Source of the DNA: a virus
DNA: 52,809 nucleotides
IMG/VR virus record: IMGVR_UViG_3300025282_003863
Location: 1-52,809 of that record
Direction: 5' to 3' (one strand)
Shown: positions 38,131-45,564 of the stretch, piece after piece
How the letters are laid out: each line of letters starts with the position of its first letter
Position numbering within the stretch: position 1 is the first letter of the stretch
Notes under the pieces: model-generated
What the model saw: the letters and a program-made list of their open reading frames with translations, nothing else
Databases searched by the model: none
What the model was told of the DNA's origin: nothing
Position numbers and translations under genes: made by a program

Positions 38131-38604
38131 CTATCCCAAATCTTTCCTGAGTTTAATTAGGATTGTTTTCATTGAAGATTTTATATAATTTCTAGAGAGT
38201 TCCATATTGTCTGAAATCTCTCTATAAGAGTTGTTACCAAGTCTAAGCTTAAGTATAGATTTTTCTTCTTCTGACAAAGAGTCGGTTAGAGTATCCCAGT
38301 CTATGCTCTTCTCTGGAACCTCTATATCTTCAAGGGGAACTTTCTTTACGTTATGCTTCTTGTTCTTGTTTATATACTTAATTATTTCATTTCTTATGCA
38401 TGTTGTGGCATAAGTTGAAAGCTTGCTTCTTTTAGGGTCGTGCTTTCTTATTGCTTTGAGAAGGCCAATAAGTCCAGATTGTATATAGTCCTCTAAATCT
38501 GAAGACCTTGAAGAACAAAAGGCTAAAGCCTGAGAAACAACAAGGCCATAGTTATCCATGACCTGTTGCTGTTCAGACTTTAGCCCAACATTGTTCTCTT
38601 CCAT
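38131..38604 (-). CDS. Short sigma-70-family RNA polymerase sigma factor
   Basis: A 157-residue sigma factor with only regions 2 and 4. Region 2: DLEDYIQSGLIGLLKAIRKH (about residues 35-54) and STYATTCIRNEIIKYI (about 63-78), the -10-binding helix. Region 4: LSEEEKSILKLRLGNNSYRE then SRNYIKSSMKTILIKLRK (about 110-155), the -35-type helix-turn-helix. Regions 1 and 3 are absent, as in phage late-gene sigma factors such as T4 gp55. It probably directs host RNA polymerase to phage promoters, perhaps those of the late plus-strand arm. I see no convincing consensus promoter in the window. Confidence 0.85.
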   Translation of the reverse strand: MEENNVGLKSEQQQVMDNYGLVVSQALAFCSSRSSDLEDYIQSGLIGLLKAIRKHDPKRSKLSTYATTCIRNEIIKYINKNKKHNVKKVPLEDIEVPEKSIDWDTLTDSLSEEEKSILKLRLGNNSYREISDNMELSRNYIKSSMKTILIKLRKDLG

Positions 38605-38605
38605 A

Positions 38606-38995
38606 TTACACTGTAGCTTCTTCAGTCTCCGATTCTGCGCGTACTGAAGAATCCTCTTCGTAATCTTCGTCAGAATTTCGAAAGCTGTTAATTAAATCGA
38701 ACTTGTTAACACGAAATTTAATGGTGTGCCTTTTGTTGCCACTGTCGTCGTTCCATCTTTCCTGCCTTGCGGAGCAGGTTACAGCAATCTTGTCTCCTTT
38801 AAGGCAATACTTTGCAATAGTTGAAGCGCCGCTATCCCAAGCTACAAAATCTAGAAAGTCCACAGTTTTAACTTTGCCTTCCTTGGTCTTTCTATACTCT
38901 GGGATAGCCAAGGTAAAATCTAAAACGTCTACGCCATTTGCCTTGCGGACCTCCGGGTCTTTCACAAAGCGTCCTACAAAACTGCAAGAGTTCAT
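38606..38995 (-). CDS. ssb: Single-stranded DNA-binding protein
   Basis: A 129-residue OB-fold SSB of the bacterial type: NSCSFVGRFVKDPEVRKANG (residues 2-21), VLDFTLAIPEYRKTK, VDFLDFVAWDSGASTIAKYC (about 44-63) and GDKIAVTCSARQERW (about 67-81). The tail is acidic (EDYEEDSS, then ESETEEATV) but lacks the DIPF tip that binds host partners, so its interactions may be phage-specific. It protects ssDNA during replication and recombination. It lies 1 base before the sigma factor and 12 bases after the unknown gene upstream. Confidence 0.88.
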   Translation of the reverse strand: MNSCSFVGRFVKDPEVRKANGVDVLDFTLAIPEYRKTKEGKVKTVDFLDFVAWDSGASTIAKYCLKGDKIAVTCSARQERWNDDSGNKRHTIKFRVNKFDLINSFRNSDEDYEEDSSVRAESETEEATV

Positions 38996-39007
38996 TCCAA
39001 AATCTCC

Positions 39008-39571
39008 TTAGAGCGGAATCGTGTCCAGTAACCGATATCCTTCGAGGACATCTTCTTCTATTGCCCCAGACGCCAAATCTGTCTCCTCATCTTCTATTTT
39101 TAGAAACATAAAGCCAGCAAGTTTTGATTCCTTCCGCCCATCCTCCTTCGATAGGCTGGGTTTAAATATATTATACAGCGAGAACGTGGTTTCCCCCAGT
39201 CCCTTTTCGTTTAGCAGAAATATAATCTCTGGTGAAAGTTTTATACTTTTAGTTTTATAGTATATGTCATAATATGCTAGAGTCCTTGCGGCATATCTAG
39301 GACACGGAATAAAAACGTTAGTTTCAAGAGTTTGGCTTTCTTCCTCTGGGGCGTGAGAAGGGAAGCTTGTGGCAACATAACTTATTCCAGATGTATCATA
39401 AGCCTCATTTAATTCTTCAAAACAATACACACTAGTTAGTCCATCAAAGACGGGCTTTACGCAGGTTCTTTGTGGATATTCTACTAGACATGCATTTGCG
39501 TCTATATCAGGATAGACCGATACAAAATATTTGTGACTTTTGAAGAAGTCGTATATTGATTCAGAACACAT
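39008..39571 (-). CDS. Protein of unknown function in replication block
   Basis: A 187-residue acidic protein that I do not recognise. It is mixed alpha/beta with conserved-looking CVEYPQRTC-like turns (actual segment ACLVEYPQRTC, about residues 27-37), CFEELNEAYDTS and an acidic C-terminal part (DEETDLASGAIEEDVLEGY). There is no membrane segment, signal peptide or nucleotide-binding motif. It sits between the polymerase C-half and SSB, so a replication-associated role is possible, but nothing in the sequence proves it. A 24-base gap precedes it. Confidence 0.5.
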   Translation of the reverse strand: MCSESIYDFFKSHKYFVSVYPDIDANACLVEYPQRTCVKPVFDGLTSVYCFEELNEAYDTSGISYVATSFPSHAPEEESQTLETNVFIPCPRYAARTLAYYDIYYKTKSIKLSPEIIFLLNEKGLGETTFSLYNIFKPSLSKEDGRKESKLAGFMFLKIEDEETDLASGAIEEDVLEGYRLLDTIPL

Positions 39572-39595
39572 TTTATGTTATAAAGTATCATGTAT

Positions 39596-41248
39596 TCAAA
39601 TTTGAGAAACCCTTTGAACAATAAAGCTATCCTTCTTTTTTGACCGCTCTCCTATGATAAGAACAGTATTTCCTTTAACAAGCAACTCTTTGTTTTCTTC
39701 CCAAGTTTCTGGGAAGGCTATCACTGAAGAAAGCTCGCAGGAGTTGTCCTCAACGGTTATGAAAGCCATCTTTTTATTTTTCATCTTGCCATTTTTTATA
39801 GCCCACTCTCTACAAGATTTTACTTCGACAGCTAGAGACATCTTTCCCGGCTTTCCATCGATGAACTCCTTGCAAGTGCCATTTGACATGCTCGTATCAC
39901 ATGAGTCTATCTTGGAATACGTAATAGAGACACCCAGAAGCCTGTCTTCCTCATTGGCGATGTCGTTTGGAAAATCTTTTAGTTCATACGGGGGGTTTTT
40001 CAGTTGGTAGACGAGGTCTTTGACTATTTCACATCTGTTTTTATTAGATGTTCCGCCGCCATCTTTTTTGGTGGGAGTCAATGCCTTTAGTGCGTCAAGA
40101 ACATTGTCCCAGTTTTTGTATCTTTCTTTAACCCAGTCTTTTTCTTTGGTCGTAAGTTTTTGCCAAGTTTCAAATTCATATAGAGTTCTGCTTCTTGACT
40201 TGTGGTCTGGAAAAAACGATAAAGCACCAACCAATATTAAGGAAGAAATTACTTTGGTTGTGTTCAATCCCGAAACATTAATCAAAAATTCATACCAAGT
40301 CCAGTCGGACATCTCTTTGCCAAATACCTGCTCTTGTTCTCTGATAGAGTTGAACAGCTTTTTGGCTTGGCTTTCGCCTATATATTTTATATCTTTAAAT
40401 CCAAAGGTTATTAACCCATCTCTAATTTCAAAGCTCTCAGACATATGTTTTATAGAGGGGGTGGTGACTGTTATTTCGTTTAGTTTTGCATCAGAAATTA
40501 GCTCTCTAATTTCCTCTTGGGAATCTGGCTTTCCTCTAGCGTAGTATAGGTAATTGCAGTAAAAATTGAGGGGAAAATGTGCCTTAGCGTAAGCAGACCA
40601 ATAACCACAAACAGCATAACTAACAGCATGGGACTTATTAAAAGCATACCGATTCGATTTTTCAATCCAACTGAATATCTCCTCCGCAATTTCTGTAGAT
40701 ACAACACCCTTTTTTTTCGCCCCCTTTAAAAACTTTTTCTTAATGTCTGCCATGAGGTCGGCTTTTTTCTTGCCGATTGCTTTGCGCAGATTGTCTGCCT
40801 CTTGGAGATTAAAGCCCGCTATGACTTCCACAATCTTCATTGATTGCTCTTGATATACCAGAACCCCTTGGGTTGACTTCAGTATCGGCTCTAAGGAGTC
40901 GTGTAGATAGCTTATTTCCTCTTCGCCGTGTTTACGGTCAACATAATGCTGCGTCATGGACTTGCCGTCCACGATTGCCTTTAAGCATCCCGGTCTCAGA
41001 AGAGCAGACAAAGCGGCCAGTTCTTCTATGCTCTTTGGCTTTACTCTTTTTGCCCAAGACTGACCTAAATTACTTTCAAGCTGAAAAACACCTTTTGTTT
41101 TGCCTTCACAGATTATGTCCCAAGTTTTGGAACACGAGTAGTCAATTTTAGATATATCAATATCTATACTTGGAGTACTATTATTTCCAGAGGGAGAGCG
41201 GTCCTTTAATTTAAACTTGCATCCACATTTAAATGTAAGATTTTCCAT
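39596..41248 (-). CDS. dnaE: DNA polymerase III alpha subunit, C-terminal half
   Basis: A 550-residue protein that begins in the alpha-subunit palm and fingers: TKGVFQLESNLG (about 50-61), ALSALLRPGCLKAIVDGKS (about 81-99), GVLVYQEQSMKIVEVIAGF (about 132-150), ADNLRKAIGKKK (about 154-165), KSNRYAFNKSHAVSYAV (about 205-221) and LNFYCNYLYYARG. The end (FITVEDNSCELSSVIAFPE, about 500-518) is the OB fold. The catalytic Asp residues are in the other half gene, at 42619-44541. A Cys pair near the start (FKCGCKF) has no clear counterpart in bacterial DnaE. The ATG at 41248 is chosen; a TTG at 41266 is the alternative. Confidence 0.9.
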   Translation of the reverse strand: MENLTFKCGCKFKLKDRSPSGNNSTPSIDIDISKIDYSCSKTWDIICEGKTKGVFQLESNLGQSWAKRVKPKSIEELAALSALLRPGCLKAIVDGKSMTQHYVDRKHGEEEISYLHDSLEPILKSTQGVLVYQEQSMKIVEVIAGFNLQEADNLRKAIGKKKADLMADIKKKFLKGAKKKGVVSTEIAEEIFSWIEKSNRYAFNKSHAVSYAVCGYWSAYAKAHFPLNFYCNYLYYARGKPDSQEEIRELISDAKLNEITVTTPSIKHMSESFEIRDGLITFGFKDIKYIGESQAKKLFNSIREQEQVFGKEMSDWTWYEFLINVSGLNTTKVISSLILVGALSFFPDHKSRSRTLYEFETWQKLTTKEKDWVKERYKNWDNVLDALKALTPTKKDGGGTSNKNRCEIVKDLVYQLKNPPYELKDFPNDIANEEDRLLGVSITYSKIDSCDTSMSNGTCKEFIDGKPGKMSLAVEVKSCREWAIKNGKMKNKKMAFITVEDNSCELSSVIAFPETWEENKELLVKGNTVLIIGERSKKKDSFIVQRVSQI

Positions 41249-41912
41249 CTGCAAAAGCCTTTTCAAATTGTGTTTTAGGTGCTAACGCCCTGTGAAACTT
41301 CAAAAATCTTATCATTATATTTGCAGTATCTTTAACATCCTTTAGAGCATCATGGGAACCCTCTTTATCTATCCCCATATAGTCTCTCATTGAATCCATG
41401 CTTATAGACTTTACGTCTGGATTATTTTCCATCCAAACCCAAACTAGGTCCATTACGTCTAGTTTGTATGCTTTATTAAAGAGTTTTTGCCCGCCAGTTT
41501 TATCATCTCTAGGACCATATTGCTGACACATTCTATTAACTATTGGCATATCAAAGCCGTTTATGTTATACCCAGCAGGTATTGGCGCATAGAAAGAAGT
41601 TTTTTTAAAGTTGTACTTATTAACAAAATCTGAGAACTTCCCCCACACCTGTTTGGGATGGGGGGCTTTGGCCAAAGACTCCCTGTCCTTGTGTGTGATT
41701 GCCAGAGCCTCTTCCTCTAGGGGGTCAAGACCAGATTCAATAGCTTCGTCATCGTCAATTATGGGTCTGATTTCACTATTGAAATATCCACCCGGTTGTA
41801 CGGTTAGCTTTCTTCCATGAATAGCTACCGCAGCTATTTGTGTAGGCTGTGTCTTGTGTGGGTTTCTGCTTCCTGTTTCAAAATCAAAAACAATTATGTC
41901 TCTGTAATTCAT
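41229..41912 (-). CDS. DEDDh 3'-5' exonuclease (proofreading-type)
   Basis: A 227-residue DnaQ-like exonuclease. ExoI is IVFDFETGSRN (Asp10 and Glu12), ExoII is GYNINGFDMPIVNR (about residues 114-127) with the conserved Asp, and ExoIII is KEGSHDALKDVKDTANI (about 184-199), carrying the His-Asp pair of DEDDh enzymes. It lies between the two polymerase halves, the right place for a proofreading partner. It overlaps the polymerase C-half by 20 bases and the nuclease upstream by 4 (ATGA). Confidence 0.86.
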   Translation of the reverse strand: MNYRDIIVFDFETGSRNPHKTQPTQIAAVAIHGRKLTVQPGGYFNSEIRPIIDDDEAIESGLDPLEEEALAITHKDRESLAKAPHPKQVWGKFSDFVNKYNFKKTSFYAPIPAGYNINGFDMPIVNRMCQQYGPRDDKTGGQKLFNKAYKLDVMDLVWVWMENNPDVKSISMDSMRDYMGIDKEGSHDALKDVKDTANIMIRFLKFHRALAPKTQFEKAFADGKSYI

Positions 41913-42394
41913 AGCAGTCCTTTTATTAGGGCTTTCAATCCGTCTTCTTCTAAATCATCCATTCTAATAAATAATGGTCCCAGTATGTCTTCCTTTTTGT
42001 ATATGTACAAAGCGGCGTTGTTGTCTCCACCGTATACAACCTCTTTAAACGGAGGAACTTCTTCCAAGAAGTCCTTTAGGGATTCTGATTTTACTACCCA
42101 CGAATTTAGATTATTGCCAGCCCCAAGAACGTAAACCCATAAGTCGGCTTTCGTGGCGGTTATCCCGCTTGGGCGGTCCACTTTTGTGTTGTGGTGTTCT
42201 ATAGCTATATTGCCAGTTTCTTCCGCCTTATAGTCGTACTTTACTTCTATAGTAAAGCCCCTTCTTCCAACTTTGCACTCTAAGTCGTAGTCGTATCTCT
42301 TTTCGTAGTCGTCATTTTTGGAACACTTTATTCCACAACTTTCTAATACGCTTTTAGCAAAGTCTTCTCCAATTCTACCTTTGCTAAAACTCAT
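41909..42394 (-). CDS. PD-(D/E)XK-like endonuclease
   Basis: A 161-residue protein with a restriction-endonuclease-like core: SKGRIGEDFAKSVLESCGI (about residues 4-22), YDYDLECKVGRRGFTIEVKYD (shortened: GFTIEVKYD, about 46-54), in which Asp and the E-x-K triad form the PD-(D/E)XK metal site. The C-terminal half lacks recognisable motifs. A Holliday-junction resolvase-like or structure-specific nuclease role is plausible beside the polymerase genes. It starts with TAATG overlap on the upstream small gene. Confidence 0.62.
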   Translation of the reverse strand: MSFSKGRIGEDFAKSVLESCGIKCSKNDDYEKRYDYDLECKVGRRGFTIEVKYDYKAEETGNIAIEHHNTKVDRPSGITATKADLWVYVLGAGNNLNSWVVKSESLKDFLEEVPPFKEVVYGGDNNAALYIYKKEDILGPLFIRMDDLEEDGLKALIKGLL

Positions 42395-42615
42395 TATATT
42401 TTCCTCTTGAGTTCTAAGAACTTAGTCACAGCTTTGTCTAAGCTCTTATACAACTCGCTATGCTTAACCTTTGGATGTTCACAATCAACTTGATAAATTT
42501 TACCGTCAAAATATCCTTTATAATAATCACTGAGAATGCATATGCTCAGTTGCTTATACTCGACAGCGCATCCGTCTTGGATAATCTTTTTGTATAGTTG
42601 CTTATTGGAAACCAT
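42394..42615 (-). CDS. Small protein of unknown function
   Basis: A 73-residue protein, Lys-rich and hydrophobic-alternating, with no motif I recognise (MVSNKQLYKKIIQDG at the start, ELYKSLDKAVTKFLELKRK helix at the end). It is tightly packed: the downstream nuclease overlaps its stop by one base and the polymerase N-half gene ends 3 bases upstream, so it is likely a real gene. No function can be proposed. Confidence 0.5.
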   Translation of the reverse strand: MVSNKQLYKKIIQDGCAVEYKQLSICILSDYYKGYFDGKIYQVDCEHPKVKHSELYKSLDKAVTKFLELKRKI

Positions 42616-42618
42616 TAA

Positions 42619-44541
42619 TTAAACCTCGATTACTCCACATGATAATTGACTACTAATACCCATAATTTTATCCAAAAGGTTTACACCCAAAATATCAAAC
42701 TTGACATGCCCCATGGCTTCCAAGTCAACCATTTCTAATCCAGCTATCTTGTCAGACCCCTTTGATTCTCTAATCATCGGACAGACTTTATCTAGATTGT
42801 GCGAGGAAATGACCACGCCAGCGGCATGCTTGCCTTGGGATTTATAAGTTCCTTCAATTCTCATTGCTTGTTGAAAAAGTTTTGCGTATGTGCCGACTAA
42901 ATTATTTTCTTTGTCTAGCCTACAATAGTCTTTAAGCTCTTCAGGTGTGTTAATTAAAGCCCACATAATTATTGAAGGCTCTTCCATGTCCTGAAGTTGG
43001 TCAGAAATTTCGTGCTCTTGTGGAAGCGTTTTAGTTATGGCATTCATTTCGTCGTATGAACAGGCGTCGTGCGCTCTAAGAACTTCTTTTAATGCGCTTC
43101 TTCCCTGAAGCTTTAAGAAGGTAATCATCTGTCCGACATTGTAATGGCCATATTTTGAGCGAATATATTTTATAACTTCGTCTCTTTTTGTGGCGGGAAC
43201 ATCTATATCAATATCAGGTAAAGAAATATGTCCGTCTGTATTTCTTCCGGCGTTATAGAATCTCTCAAAAATTAAGCCGAATTCTACGGGGTCCACCTGA
43301 GTGATGCCTATTAAGTATGAGATTAAGCTTCCGGCAGCCGACCCTCTCCCCGGACCCGGAAGCCATCCTTCTTGCCTGACATAATTAACTATGTCTCTAA
43401 CGATTAGGAAATATCCAGCTAGATTAGCGTCCTTGATTACTTCTAATTCTTTTTTGATTGTTTCCAAATATGTCTGTGTAGAATGTTCATCTGATATCTT
43501 GCCCGATTTTATGAGCAATCTCTTCCACCCGTCTCTACACAAAGAGCGAAGATATGCGTCTTCACTAAGGCTGTCTGGACATGAAAACTTTGGAAGAATA
43601 GGATGCCCTAATATATTATATTCTTCACACAAGCCAGATATCACACGTGTGTTTAATATCTCCTCTTTTGTATGAAGGGGTTCAATCTCTTCCGGTGTTG
43701 GTATGTGGTAATTATCAGACCTAAAGAAACCGGAAAGACCTATATCGCTTCCTTCATTTAGCTTTTGCTCGACCTTTTGCAATGTAGTTTTCATCGCTGA
43801 GCAAAGAAGCATGCGTTGGTCTGGGGCATCTTCCTTGGTGGGATAGTGGGAGTCAGCCGTGGCAACAGGAGGAGTTCCACTCTTGGAGCTAAGGCTTCTT
43901 AGGCATTCTGCTATTAACTCGGAGGCGGGGAAGTTCTCTTTATCTATAAGCTGAATTTCAATATAGAAGTTTTCCTTGCCAAATATATTTATATACTTAG
44001 ACAGAAGAATACTGGCCTCTTCAAACCAATTTCTTTTAAGGTGCTTGGCCGCTTCTTCATATGACTTAGAATTATAAGCCTTTTTCCAATTAACAAAAAG
44101 AACATTGGCGAGGTCGCTGCCGGGATGTCCGCTAAAAGCTATTAAGTTTTGATTCTTGTTAAGCTCTTCTAGAATACTTAAATCAATTCTAGGTCTAAAA
44201 TAGAACACATCTTCATCATTGCTTCTTGAAACTATCGAAATTAAGTCTAACCAACCATCTTTATTTTTTGCGAGAACCACAAGATGGCTAAGTGTTCTGT
44301 TTTCTTTATCTTGAATTGTTGCCGAGTCTTGAGAAAGATACAGTTCACATCCCAAGATGGGTTTGATTCCCTTCTCTTTCATCGCTTTGACAAAAGAGAC
44401 GGCTCCAGATATTGTTCCATGGTCTGTAAGGGCACAAACATCGTATCCGAGAGTCTCGCATCTGTCAGATATCTGGCCGGGCTTAGACAGACCATCCAGC
44501 AAGCTATAGTGGCTGTGCAAATGTAGAGGAACCCAAGTCAT
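42619..44541 (-). CDS. dnaE: DNA polymerase III alpha subunit, N-terminal half
   Basis: A 640-residue protein with the PHP domain (HLHSHYS at 7-13, LTDHGT at 38-43) followed by the polymerase palm: LPGPGRGSAAGSLISYLIG (about 394-412), SLPDIDIDVPATKRD (about 440-454) holding Asp445 and Asp447, KHAAGVVIS (about 571-579) and HVKFDILGVNLLDKI (about 612-626) with the third catalytic Asp616. All three catalytic Asp residues are therefore in this half. The protein stops right after this motif, where DnaE normally continues into the FQLES region, which is encoded at 39596-41248. There is no intein-like sequence at the break. Confidence 0.92.
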   Translation of the reverse strand: MTWVPLHLHSHYSLLDGLSKPGQISDRCETLGYDVCALTDHGTISGAVSFVKAMKEKGIKPILGCELYLSQDSATIQDKENRTLSHLVVLAKNKDGWLDLISIVSRSNDEDVFYFRPRIDLSILEELNKNQNLIAFSGHPGSDLANVLFVNWKKAYNSKSYEEAAKHLKRNWFEEASILLSKYINIFGKENFYIEIQLIDKENFPASELIAECLRSLSSKSGTPPVATADSHYPTKEDAPDQRMLLCSAMKTTLQKVEQKLNEGSDIGLSGFFRSDNYHIPTPEEIEPLHTKEEILNTRVISGLCEEYNILGHPILPKFSCPDSLSEDAYLRSLCRDGWKRLLIKSGKISDEHSTQTYLETIKKELEVIKDANLAGYFLIVRDIVNYVRQEGWLPGPGRGSAAGSLISYLIGITQVDPVEFGLIFERFYNAGRNTDGHISLPDIDIDVPATKRDEVIKYIRSKYGHYNVGQMITFLKLQGRSALKEVLRAHDACSYDEMNAITKTLPQEHEISDQLQDMEEPSIIMWALINTPEELKDYCRLDKENNLVGTYAKLFQQAMRIEGTYKSQGKHAAGVVISSHNLDKVCPMIRESKGSDKIAGLEMVDLEAMGHVKFDILGVNLLDKIMGISSQLSCGVIEV

Positions 44542-44544
44542 GGC

Positions 44545-45564
44545 TTACCCCGGTGCTGAGTAATATCCAAGAGTGAAACCTTCTTTAGTACACTCATCAA
44601 CAGTCTGATTTATTCCGTCTTTGTTTATCTTATCTTTTATGTGAGAACACATCCGCTGGTTTGTACCTTGCCAGTTGTTTTTATAATAGTGGCAAAGCTT
44701 AGTACATTTCCAATGGTTGTGGTCCTCTGAAAGAAGCTTGGGAGACTGGTTATTTTTTATCTCTTCAAATCTATTCTTTAGCATGTCTAAAAATAGCTTC
44801 TTATCAGATTCGTCAAAACAAAGCGAGAACGGACCTCCGTCTCGGATATAAAAGATGGTCATTATGGTCTGCTCATAGTTTGGGAAAAGATGAGACAGCG
44901 CATAATGATAAAGCAGAAGCTGTGGGTCTTTAGAGAGCTTGTCGTAGTCCTTCTCTTGACCCGTTGCCCAATCTATTCTTCTGCCGGTTTTCCAGTCTAC
45001 GGCCTCCATAACCCCATCGGAGACCTCTGTGACCAAATCTATAGTCCCCTTGATTGCGAGGTGTCCACTGACCTCGGACCCATCAGGCATAGTGTAGTCG
45101 TATTTAGCCCAAGGCTCTTTAATCTCGATATCGAAATGAGGCTCTGGGGCAACGACGTTTCTGTTTCTGGGGTCAAACTGGCCTTGATTAAATTCCAAGG
45201 CTGCGTGGGACCACTTCACGCAGTCCTTGTAATCCCTAGGGGCGTATTTATGCACCGACTCAGAAACGTAGTGCTCGTAGCTCTTGTCTATTAAAGAGTC
45301 AACATACTTAGAAGACAGCATCTTGTCCTTGGTAATTCTAATTCTTCCCAAGGAGTCATCTTTGTAACTCTTTTTATTATCTTGAACGGCCTTCTTTGAA
45401 CGGGCCAAGCATTCCATAACCTTATGAACAATGGTTCCCATCTCGGCCTTTTTACTAGAACCAGAGGGGTAACCAAGAACATAGTTTATAAAGTACTGTT
45501 GTTGACAGAAGTCATAATTATTATAAGAAGAGCTTCTTATGTAAGTAACGTACACTATTTCCAT
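44545..45564 (-). CDS. Cas4/RecB-like PD-(D/E)XK nuclease with Fe-S-type Cys
   Basis: A 339-residue nuclease. MGTIVHKVMECL (about residues 42-53) holds the first His; KGTIDLVTEV (about 172-181) and EAVDWKTGRR (about 187-196) are the D and E/DxK active-site motifs, followed by a QLLLYHYAL helix. Cys20 (DFCQQQYF) and three C-terminal Cys (WKCTKLC, then QRMCSH, about 285-307) are placed as in AddB/Cas4 4Fe-4S nucleases. It probably processes DNA ends in recombination or replication. The start overlaps the ThyX stop by 10 bases. Confidence 0.8.
   Translation of the reverse strand: MEIVYVTYIRSSSYNNYDFCQQQYFINYVLGYPSGSSKKAEMGTIVHKVMECLARSKKAVQDNKKSYKDDSLGRIRITKDKMLSSKYVDSLIDKSYEHYVSESVHKYAPRDYKDCVKWSHAALEFNQGQFDPRNRNVVAPEPHFDIEIKEPWAKYDYTMPDGSEVSGHLAIKGTIDLVTEVSDGVMEAVDWKTGRRIDWATGQEKDYDKLSKDPQLLLYHYALSHLFPNYEQTIMTIFYIRDGGPFSLCFDESDKKLFLDMLKNRFEEIKNNQSPKLLSEDHNHWKCTKLCHYYKNNWQGTNQRMCSHIKDKINKDGINQTVDECTKEGFTLGYYSAPG

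Follow-up and report, generated by a model that had tools for sequence, protein, structure and literature searches.

The 52,809-base viral record IMGVR_UViG_3300025282_003863 from IMG/VR, which we refer to in its entirety as the window, encodes at positions 39,596-44,541 the alpha subunit of DNA polymerase III (Pol III alpha) in two separate genes, one for an N-terminal and one for a C-terminal half, with three further genes lying between them. The same break, with the same exonuclease gene between the halves, is present in 220 related loci, 136 of which are distinct, and the lineage, a large one made up of uncultured bacterial viruses, has a permanently two-gene Pol III alpha. We regard it as likely that the two polypeptides reassemble without a covalent link and that the exonuclease serves as an epsilon-like proofreader of the same core.

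A preliminary description of the window, made from its sequence alone, had placed a divided Pol III alpha at these coordinates, and the gene calls, the Pfam matches and the location of the catalytic triad in the N-half bear this out. The N-half matches the PHP (4.6e-39) and DNA_pol3_alpha (3.9e-70) families, and the C-half matches the finger domain (1.2e-50) and HHH_6, with a weak OB match below the Pfam cut-off; the DnaE-type domain order of PHP, palm, fingers, HhH and OB is complete but spread across two proteins, and by these signatures the enzyme is assigned to the C family, DnaE type. The triad D443, D445 and D616, placed by alignment to Pol III alpha chains in the PDB, lies wholly within the N-half and is invariant in 63 of 63 N-halves. 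When profiles are aligned to Pol III alpha chains of known structure, the N-half ends near position 566 of Escherichia coli alpha and the C-half begins near position 578, so that the break falls in the linker joining palm and fingers, which in intact proteins is 39-56 residues long (median 45). About 24 residues follow the motif KFDILG in the N-half, and the C-half begins with conserved polymerase linker; the motif FQLES, just ahead of which the C-half had been said to start, is in fact some 55 residues into it.

AlphaFold2 was run on each half separately, the concatenated sequence serving solely as a search query. The N-half model has a mean predicted local distance difference test score (pLDDT) of 92.9 and a predicted template-modelling score (pTM) of 0.90, and the C-half model values of 91.9 and 0.85; the best PDB matches of both are Pol III alpha, with Foldseek E-values to PDB 2hpi of 5e-46 and 1e-22, respectively. 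Each half is thus confidently predicted to adopt, by itself, the fold of the corresponding portion of Pol III alpha. The N-half model terminates in a helix (residues 621-635), which places the cut just behind a closed element of the predicted fold.

Relatives were sought in IMG/VR by single-protein and alignment scans, in GTDB genomes and among isolates, a survey of intact and split forms that the preliminary description had proposed. None of the 220 related loci, down to about 40-50% identity with the window, has fused halves. Four loci are cut at the palm-fingers joint without an exonuclease (Rossellomorea phage phiT1, Mycobacterium phage Fowlmouth, L291 and L307), and 115 classified loci, from bacteria and other phages, are intact at this joint, a few of them being cut between PHP and palm instead; the clade exonuclease is absent from all 115. 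The bacterial DnaE loci compared are all single proteins at this joint, as are most of the other phage DnaE sampled. In L290, L295, L307 and L308 the two halves are widely separated, by about 14 kb in the L290 record, and no exonuclease was detected in these four. We note that these four, together with L363-L366, carry an insertion of about 110 residues in the palm beside the catalytic motif; an intein was considered as its identity and set aside, since no intein-like sequence could be read in it.

The phylogeny of these proteins was reconstructed from 95 rows and 1005 columns as a quick tree without bootstrap, in which some intact rows sit on long branches. The 53 rows split in this way, of which 52 have the exonuclease and the other is L290, all fall in one clade, with a long stem of 0.66 and a support of 100 in the SH-like approximate likelihood ratio test (SH-aLRT). 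Because phiT1, L291 and Fowlmouth are placed elsewhere, the split state requires four changes on the tree, which indicates that the palm-fingers joint broke repeatedly overall but once in this clade. The linker would thus be a recurrent natural cut site, and a naturally tested split point of use in engineering and in studying how the sides of an active site assemble.

The preliminary description had taken the locus to contain three unrelated inserted genes. This is not supported. Two of them, a small gene (orf73) and a candidate nuclease gene (PDEXK161), are optional, having relatives in 55 and 8 of the 136 distinct loci, respectively. The exonuclease (exo227) is no unrelated insert: not one linked locus of the clade lacks it (220 of 220). 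It lies directly ahead of the C-half gene in 112 of 136 distinct loci, and in 91 of 134 the two frames overlap, most commonly by the same 20 nucleotides as in the window; since a start 20 nucleotides inside the exonuclease gene is the commonest arrangement among relatives, the ATG at 41248 rather than the TTG at 41266 is most likely the start of the C-half. The product matches Pfam RNase_T (7.9e-13) and PHROG 192, named 'DNA polymerase exonuclease subunit' (6.1e-23). Its DEDDh residues D10, E12, D121, H187 and D192 are invariant in alignment A3, and a crude pattern for this motif recovers its two ends in 131 of 136 loci.

What else lies between the halves is variable. Only the two halves and the exonuclease are present in 16 of 136 distinct loci, and the interval ranges from about 0.7 to 6.8 kb across linked loci. 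Other passengers include uracil-DNA glycosylases (7), endonuclease VII-like genes behind the exonuclease (10), HNH-like genes and methyltransferases, and in L008, L030 and L031 a block of metabolic genes (dehydrogenases, an aminotransferase and an amidinotransferase-like gene) lies between orf73 and the exonuclease. The interval is a site of gene turnover with the exonuclease as its fixed resident and orf73 and PDEXK161 as variable passengers. Endonuclease VII-like or HNH-like genes stand between the exonuclease and the C-half in 10-13 loci (L064, L066, L071 and others), possibly as later arrivals, and those of the endonuclease VII-like type are a possible trace of mobile endonucleases; no homing endonuclease is present at the break in the window. 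No supported Pfam or PHROG family was found for orf73. PDEXK161 has no Pfam match and belongs to PHROG 13596, a family of unassigned function; it is a candidate PD-(D/E)XK nuclease from a reading of its motif (YDYDLEC...FTIEVK).

We propose that Pol III alpha is made here as two polypeptides, with the division in the loop that joins palm to fingers, and that the two would bind each other non-covalently and rebuild a single active site. The N-half would supply the catalytic aspartates and the primer side, and the C-half the fingers, the template and dNTP contacts and the OB fold. The interposed gene would encode an epsilon-like subunit that proofreads in the same core, its synthesis coupled to that of the C-half by the gene overlap. 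Binding of the halves, polymerization by their complex and proofreading within it are what we infer from these features; that the exonuclease binds alpha and proofreads is suggested by gene order and overlap.

The chief competitor to this proposal, which we consider a good deal less probable though not negligible, is that the exonuclease is a mere neighbour, engaged for instance in host DNA degradation or repair, and that the enzyme consists of the two alpha halves only. Several observations weigh against the proposed proofreader and toward this alternative. The exonuclease shows only a weak relationship to DnaQ and PolC exonucleases of known structure (best 3.1e-07), so that a different role is conceivable, and none of its relatives in isolates adjoins a dnaE gene. 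A 26% exonuclease match and the gene lengths had pointed to Bacteroides DAC phages as carriers of this unit, but this was rejected, since the adjoining genes there fail to match the profiles of either half and resemble terminase and ligase proteins. It is not needed for the split as such, because the L290-type relatives, phiT1 and Fowlmouth are split without it. Nine PHP metal ligands, assigned by alignment to Taq alpha, are retained in most members, and the PHP site could proofread in its place. A separate point against the proposal, which concerns processivity rather than proofreading, is that eight large clade records, perhaps incomplete, yielded neither a DnaN-type clamp nor a clamp-loader protein of the delta' type. 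Opposed to the mere-neighbour explanation are the constant presence of the exonuclease ahead of, and commonly overlapping, the C-half gene, its dN/dS (ratio of nonsynonymous to synonymous substitution rates) of 0.02-0.05, its PHROG name and its retention where PHP has decayed. In one A5 subclade (L054, L058, L063, L073, L075, L076, L079, L089, L099, L301, L312, L314, L315, L325, L352 and L361) the PHP ligands and about 100 N-half residues are lost and the exonuclease is kept; L316 has separately lost the ligands with no change in N-half length, and it too keeps the exonuclease. This pattern would fit the exonuclease as the main proofreader. The lineage offers a natural experiment in proofreading, with PHP and exonuclease together, with decayed PHP and an exonuclease, and with no detectable exonuclease.

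An extension of the proposal, which we think improbable, is that the exonuclease binds at, or close to, the palm-fingers joint opened by the cut to give a three-part core of alpha-N, exonuclease and alpha-C in which it is coupled to the fingers subunit. If this were so, the geometry of proofreading would differ from that in E. coli, where epsilon is bound to PHP, and from that in PolC, where the exonuclease is built in, and the decay of the PHP site in one subclade could be accounted for.

That the halves would have to associate as proteins, which the preliminary description had considered unavoidable, is supported. Joining at the RNA level, through an intron (group I, group II or split), or through bypassing by the ribosome, is very improbable: introns are common in phage polymerase genes (cited in PMC10580990), but no Rfam match was found in 39000-45000 of the window, even at an E-value of 1, and the exonuclease gene in the interval is conserved, is strongly constrained by purifying selection and has a frame that overlaps that of the C-half. 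Moreover, the interval varies widely in length, the genes are well separated in L290, and the stop of the N-half and the start of the C-half are kept. Slighter still is the likelihood of post-translational joining by a split intein, which is how cyanobacterial split DnaE works (PMC7765530). Intein fragments were looked for at the edges of the break and not found, in agreement with the preliminary description, which had set the locus apart from the cyanobacterial arrangement: Pfam detects none, the short tail behind KFDILG and the polymerase linker that opens the C-half could not accommodate an intein of at least 100 residues, and both edges are polymerase-like across the whole clade. Intein-like sequence does occur elsewhere, and to that extent favours such a mechanism. 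L179 and L180 have a C-half whose conserved FNKSH motif is the site of an interruption by a sequence that resembles an intein, ending EHIFYANGIAVSN|SHSSAYG. In Bacteroides phage BS-TP1 (L271, 789-5294) alpha is broken at a different place, inside the palm, with an N piece that ends intein-like and a Dda-like helicase gene between the pieces.

Both halves and the exonuclease are under purifying selection. Between the window and L004, dN/dS is 0.165 for the N-half, 0.12 for orf73, 0.035 for PDEXK161, 0.045 for the exonuclease and 0.063 for the C-half; between L006 and L009 it is 0.067, 0.019 and 0.064 for the N-half, exonuclease and C-half. A decaying or interrupted polymerase gene in a phage that uses the host polymerase might be suspected from the repeated invasion of the interval by cargo genes, HNH-like and endonuclease VII-like genes among them, but the invariant catalytic residues, the dN/dS of 0.06-0.17 and the persistence of both halves across deep divergence leave this with hardly any probability. 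No match to PolA or PolB was found in the eight large clade records (111-244 kb), perhaps incomplete as they are, and a 119-kb sister record contains one N-half. Apart from the split enzyme no DNA polymerase is therefore recognised in the eight records, and the split enzyme is most plausibly the replicase. An essential catalytic subunit of Pol III can, it appears, persist as two proteins in a large and old virus lineage.

An artefact of assembly or binning, which the preliminary description had named as fatal to its reading, can practically be discounted: the close members all come from metagenome contigs, but the identical junction recurs in other metagenomes at 100% (L002, L003 and L005), at 94-98% protein identity (L004 and L022), and at 60-72% and 40-50%, and is therefore due neither to chance nor to misassembly. 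A frameshift was rejected as well, in view of the many independent contigs. Contigs in metagenome-assembled genomes labelled Flavobacteriales and Lokiarchaeota (L186 and L187) carry the split version and nest within the phage clade, and are probably mis-binned phage contigs.

The C-half opens with a cysteine module, which AlphaFold2 predicts as a hairpin (strands E3-5/E11-14). The F-x-CGC-x motif and a third cysteine at position 39 vary little or not at all among the nearer relatives of the window, and are invariant in alignment A1. The CxC is present in 34 of 53 tree rows, including the deepest branches (L290 and L320), and absent in the other 19, which takes about four changes; on this tree it appears ancestral to the clade. 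The suggestion in the preliminary description that the cysteine pair might help the halves to pair is weakened, because the module has been lost with the split kept and so is not essential for pairing in general. It is known only from this side of the tree and therefore may have arisen with the split. The module is missing from 17 of 18 members with a decayed PHP, the exception being L186, whose start is truncated, and from ten members with an intact PHP.

The features of the locus and its immediate neighbours are collected in Table 1. The genes are transcribed from the minus strand in the order N-half, orf73, PDEXK161, exo227, C-half, with a gap of 3 nucleotides behind the N-half followed by overlaps of 1, 4 and 20 nucleotides. 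Helicase, primase and single-stranded DNA-binding protein (SSB) genes surround the split polymerase in the window by Pfam match; a Cas4/RecB-like exonuclease gene precedes the N-half in most relatives with flanking sequence, and SSB follows the C-half in relatives. Directly downstream of SSB, at 38131-38604, is a gene for a small sigma-70-like protein (157 residues, regions 2 and 4), and the segment 11250-38130 contains numerous sugar and glycosyltransferase genes (NeuB, a DegT aminotransferase, epimerases and glycosyltransferase families 1, 8 and 11).

Table 1. Position and character of the split polymerase genes and adjacent features in the window.
Feature	Position	Strand	Character	Basis
Pol III alpha N-half	42619..44541	-	640 aa; PHP, palm with D443, D445, D616, thumb	Pfam, AlphaFold2, Foldseek
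orf73	42394..42615	-	small gene, function not assigned; relatives always between N-half and exonuclease	
PDEXK161, PD-(D/E)XK-like nuclease candidate	41909..42394	-	161 aa; optional passenger	
exo227, DEDDh-type 3'-5' exonuclease, epsilon/DnaQ-like	41229..41912	-	227 aa; constant part of unit	
Pol III alpha C-half	39596..41248	-	550 aa; last part of palm-fingers linker, then fingers, HhH, OB fold	
Overlap of exonuclease end and C-half start	41229..41248	-	20 nt; probable translational coupling	
Cys module of C-half	41132..41227	-	C8-G9-C10 ... C39; predicted beta-hairpin extension at break	
PD-(D/E)XK (Cas4/RecB-like) exonuclease, upstream neighbour	44545..45564	-	same compact gene row	Pfam PDDEXK_1 3e-18
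SSB, downstream neighbour	38606..38995	-		Pfam SSB 5.3e-18

Divided Pol III alpha genes have precedents of several kinds, some of them known as GenBank annotation. Rossellomorea phage phiT1 (gp20/gp19/gp18, PV767480) and Mycobacterium phage Fowlmouth (gp85/gp86, NC_048734) have alpha cut at the same joint, the former with a 49-residue gene between the halves and the latter with nothing, and neither with an exonuclease; their separate positions on the tree make these breaks independent of the clade. Gordonia phages LilyPad and BiteSize, Microbacterium phage Hiddenleaf and Rhodococcus phage Grayson, again known from GenBank annotation, also have a two-gene alpha, but with the break between PHP and palm, about 300-345 residues from the start. 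Cyanobacterial split DnaE is likewise a two-gene Pol III alpha, but there a split intein joins the products, and none was found here. Its break lies further into the fingers. In the group 2.2 jumbo phages a minimal two-protein Pol III alpha has been described (Iyer et al. 2021, PMC7824862), which lacks other Pol III domains, is cut within the catalytic module, is encoded by distant genes and stands alongside a family B polymerase, whereas the present clade has PHP, HhH and OB domains and linked genes, with no PolB found. In Aeromonas phages 25 and 44RR the replicative polymerase is made as two polypeptides, gp43A and gp43B, without an intein; those of phage 25 co-purify and polymerise, a demonstrated case of a divided phage polymerase reassembling non-covalently, and a homing endonuclease sometimes lies between the split genes (PMC2988022). 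The resemblance to our clade is in the two polypeptides without an intein, and the difference is that gp43 belongs to family B and that its split form is described for a few T4-like phages. Phage 0305phi8-36 was also checked as a precedent for a split, and nothing was found.

We found no published description of the arrangement of N-half, exonuclease and C-half, although most subscription literature was outside our search and an earlier mention is possible; two-gene Pol III alpha is already known, and this widespread form is apparently undescribed. Such halves are easily overlooked in annotation as fragments or frameshifts. A partial parallel to the gene order is seen in Wifcevirus WFC, where a DnaQ-like gene lies directly before dnaE, as the exonuclease precedes the C-half here, but where alpha is intact. 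The PolC exonuclease lies inside the same chain as its polymerase. In both PolC and the DnaE-epsilon core an exonuclease is associated with Pol III alpha, as we propose for the two-gene enzyme of this clade.

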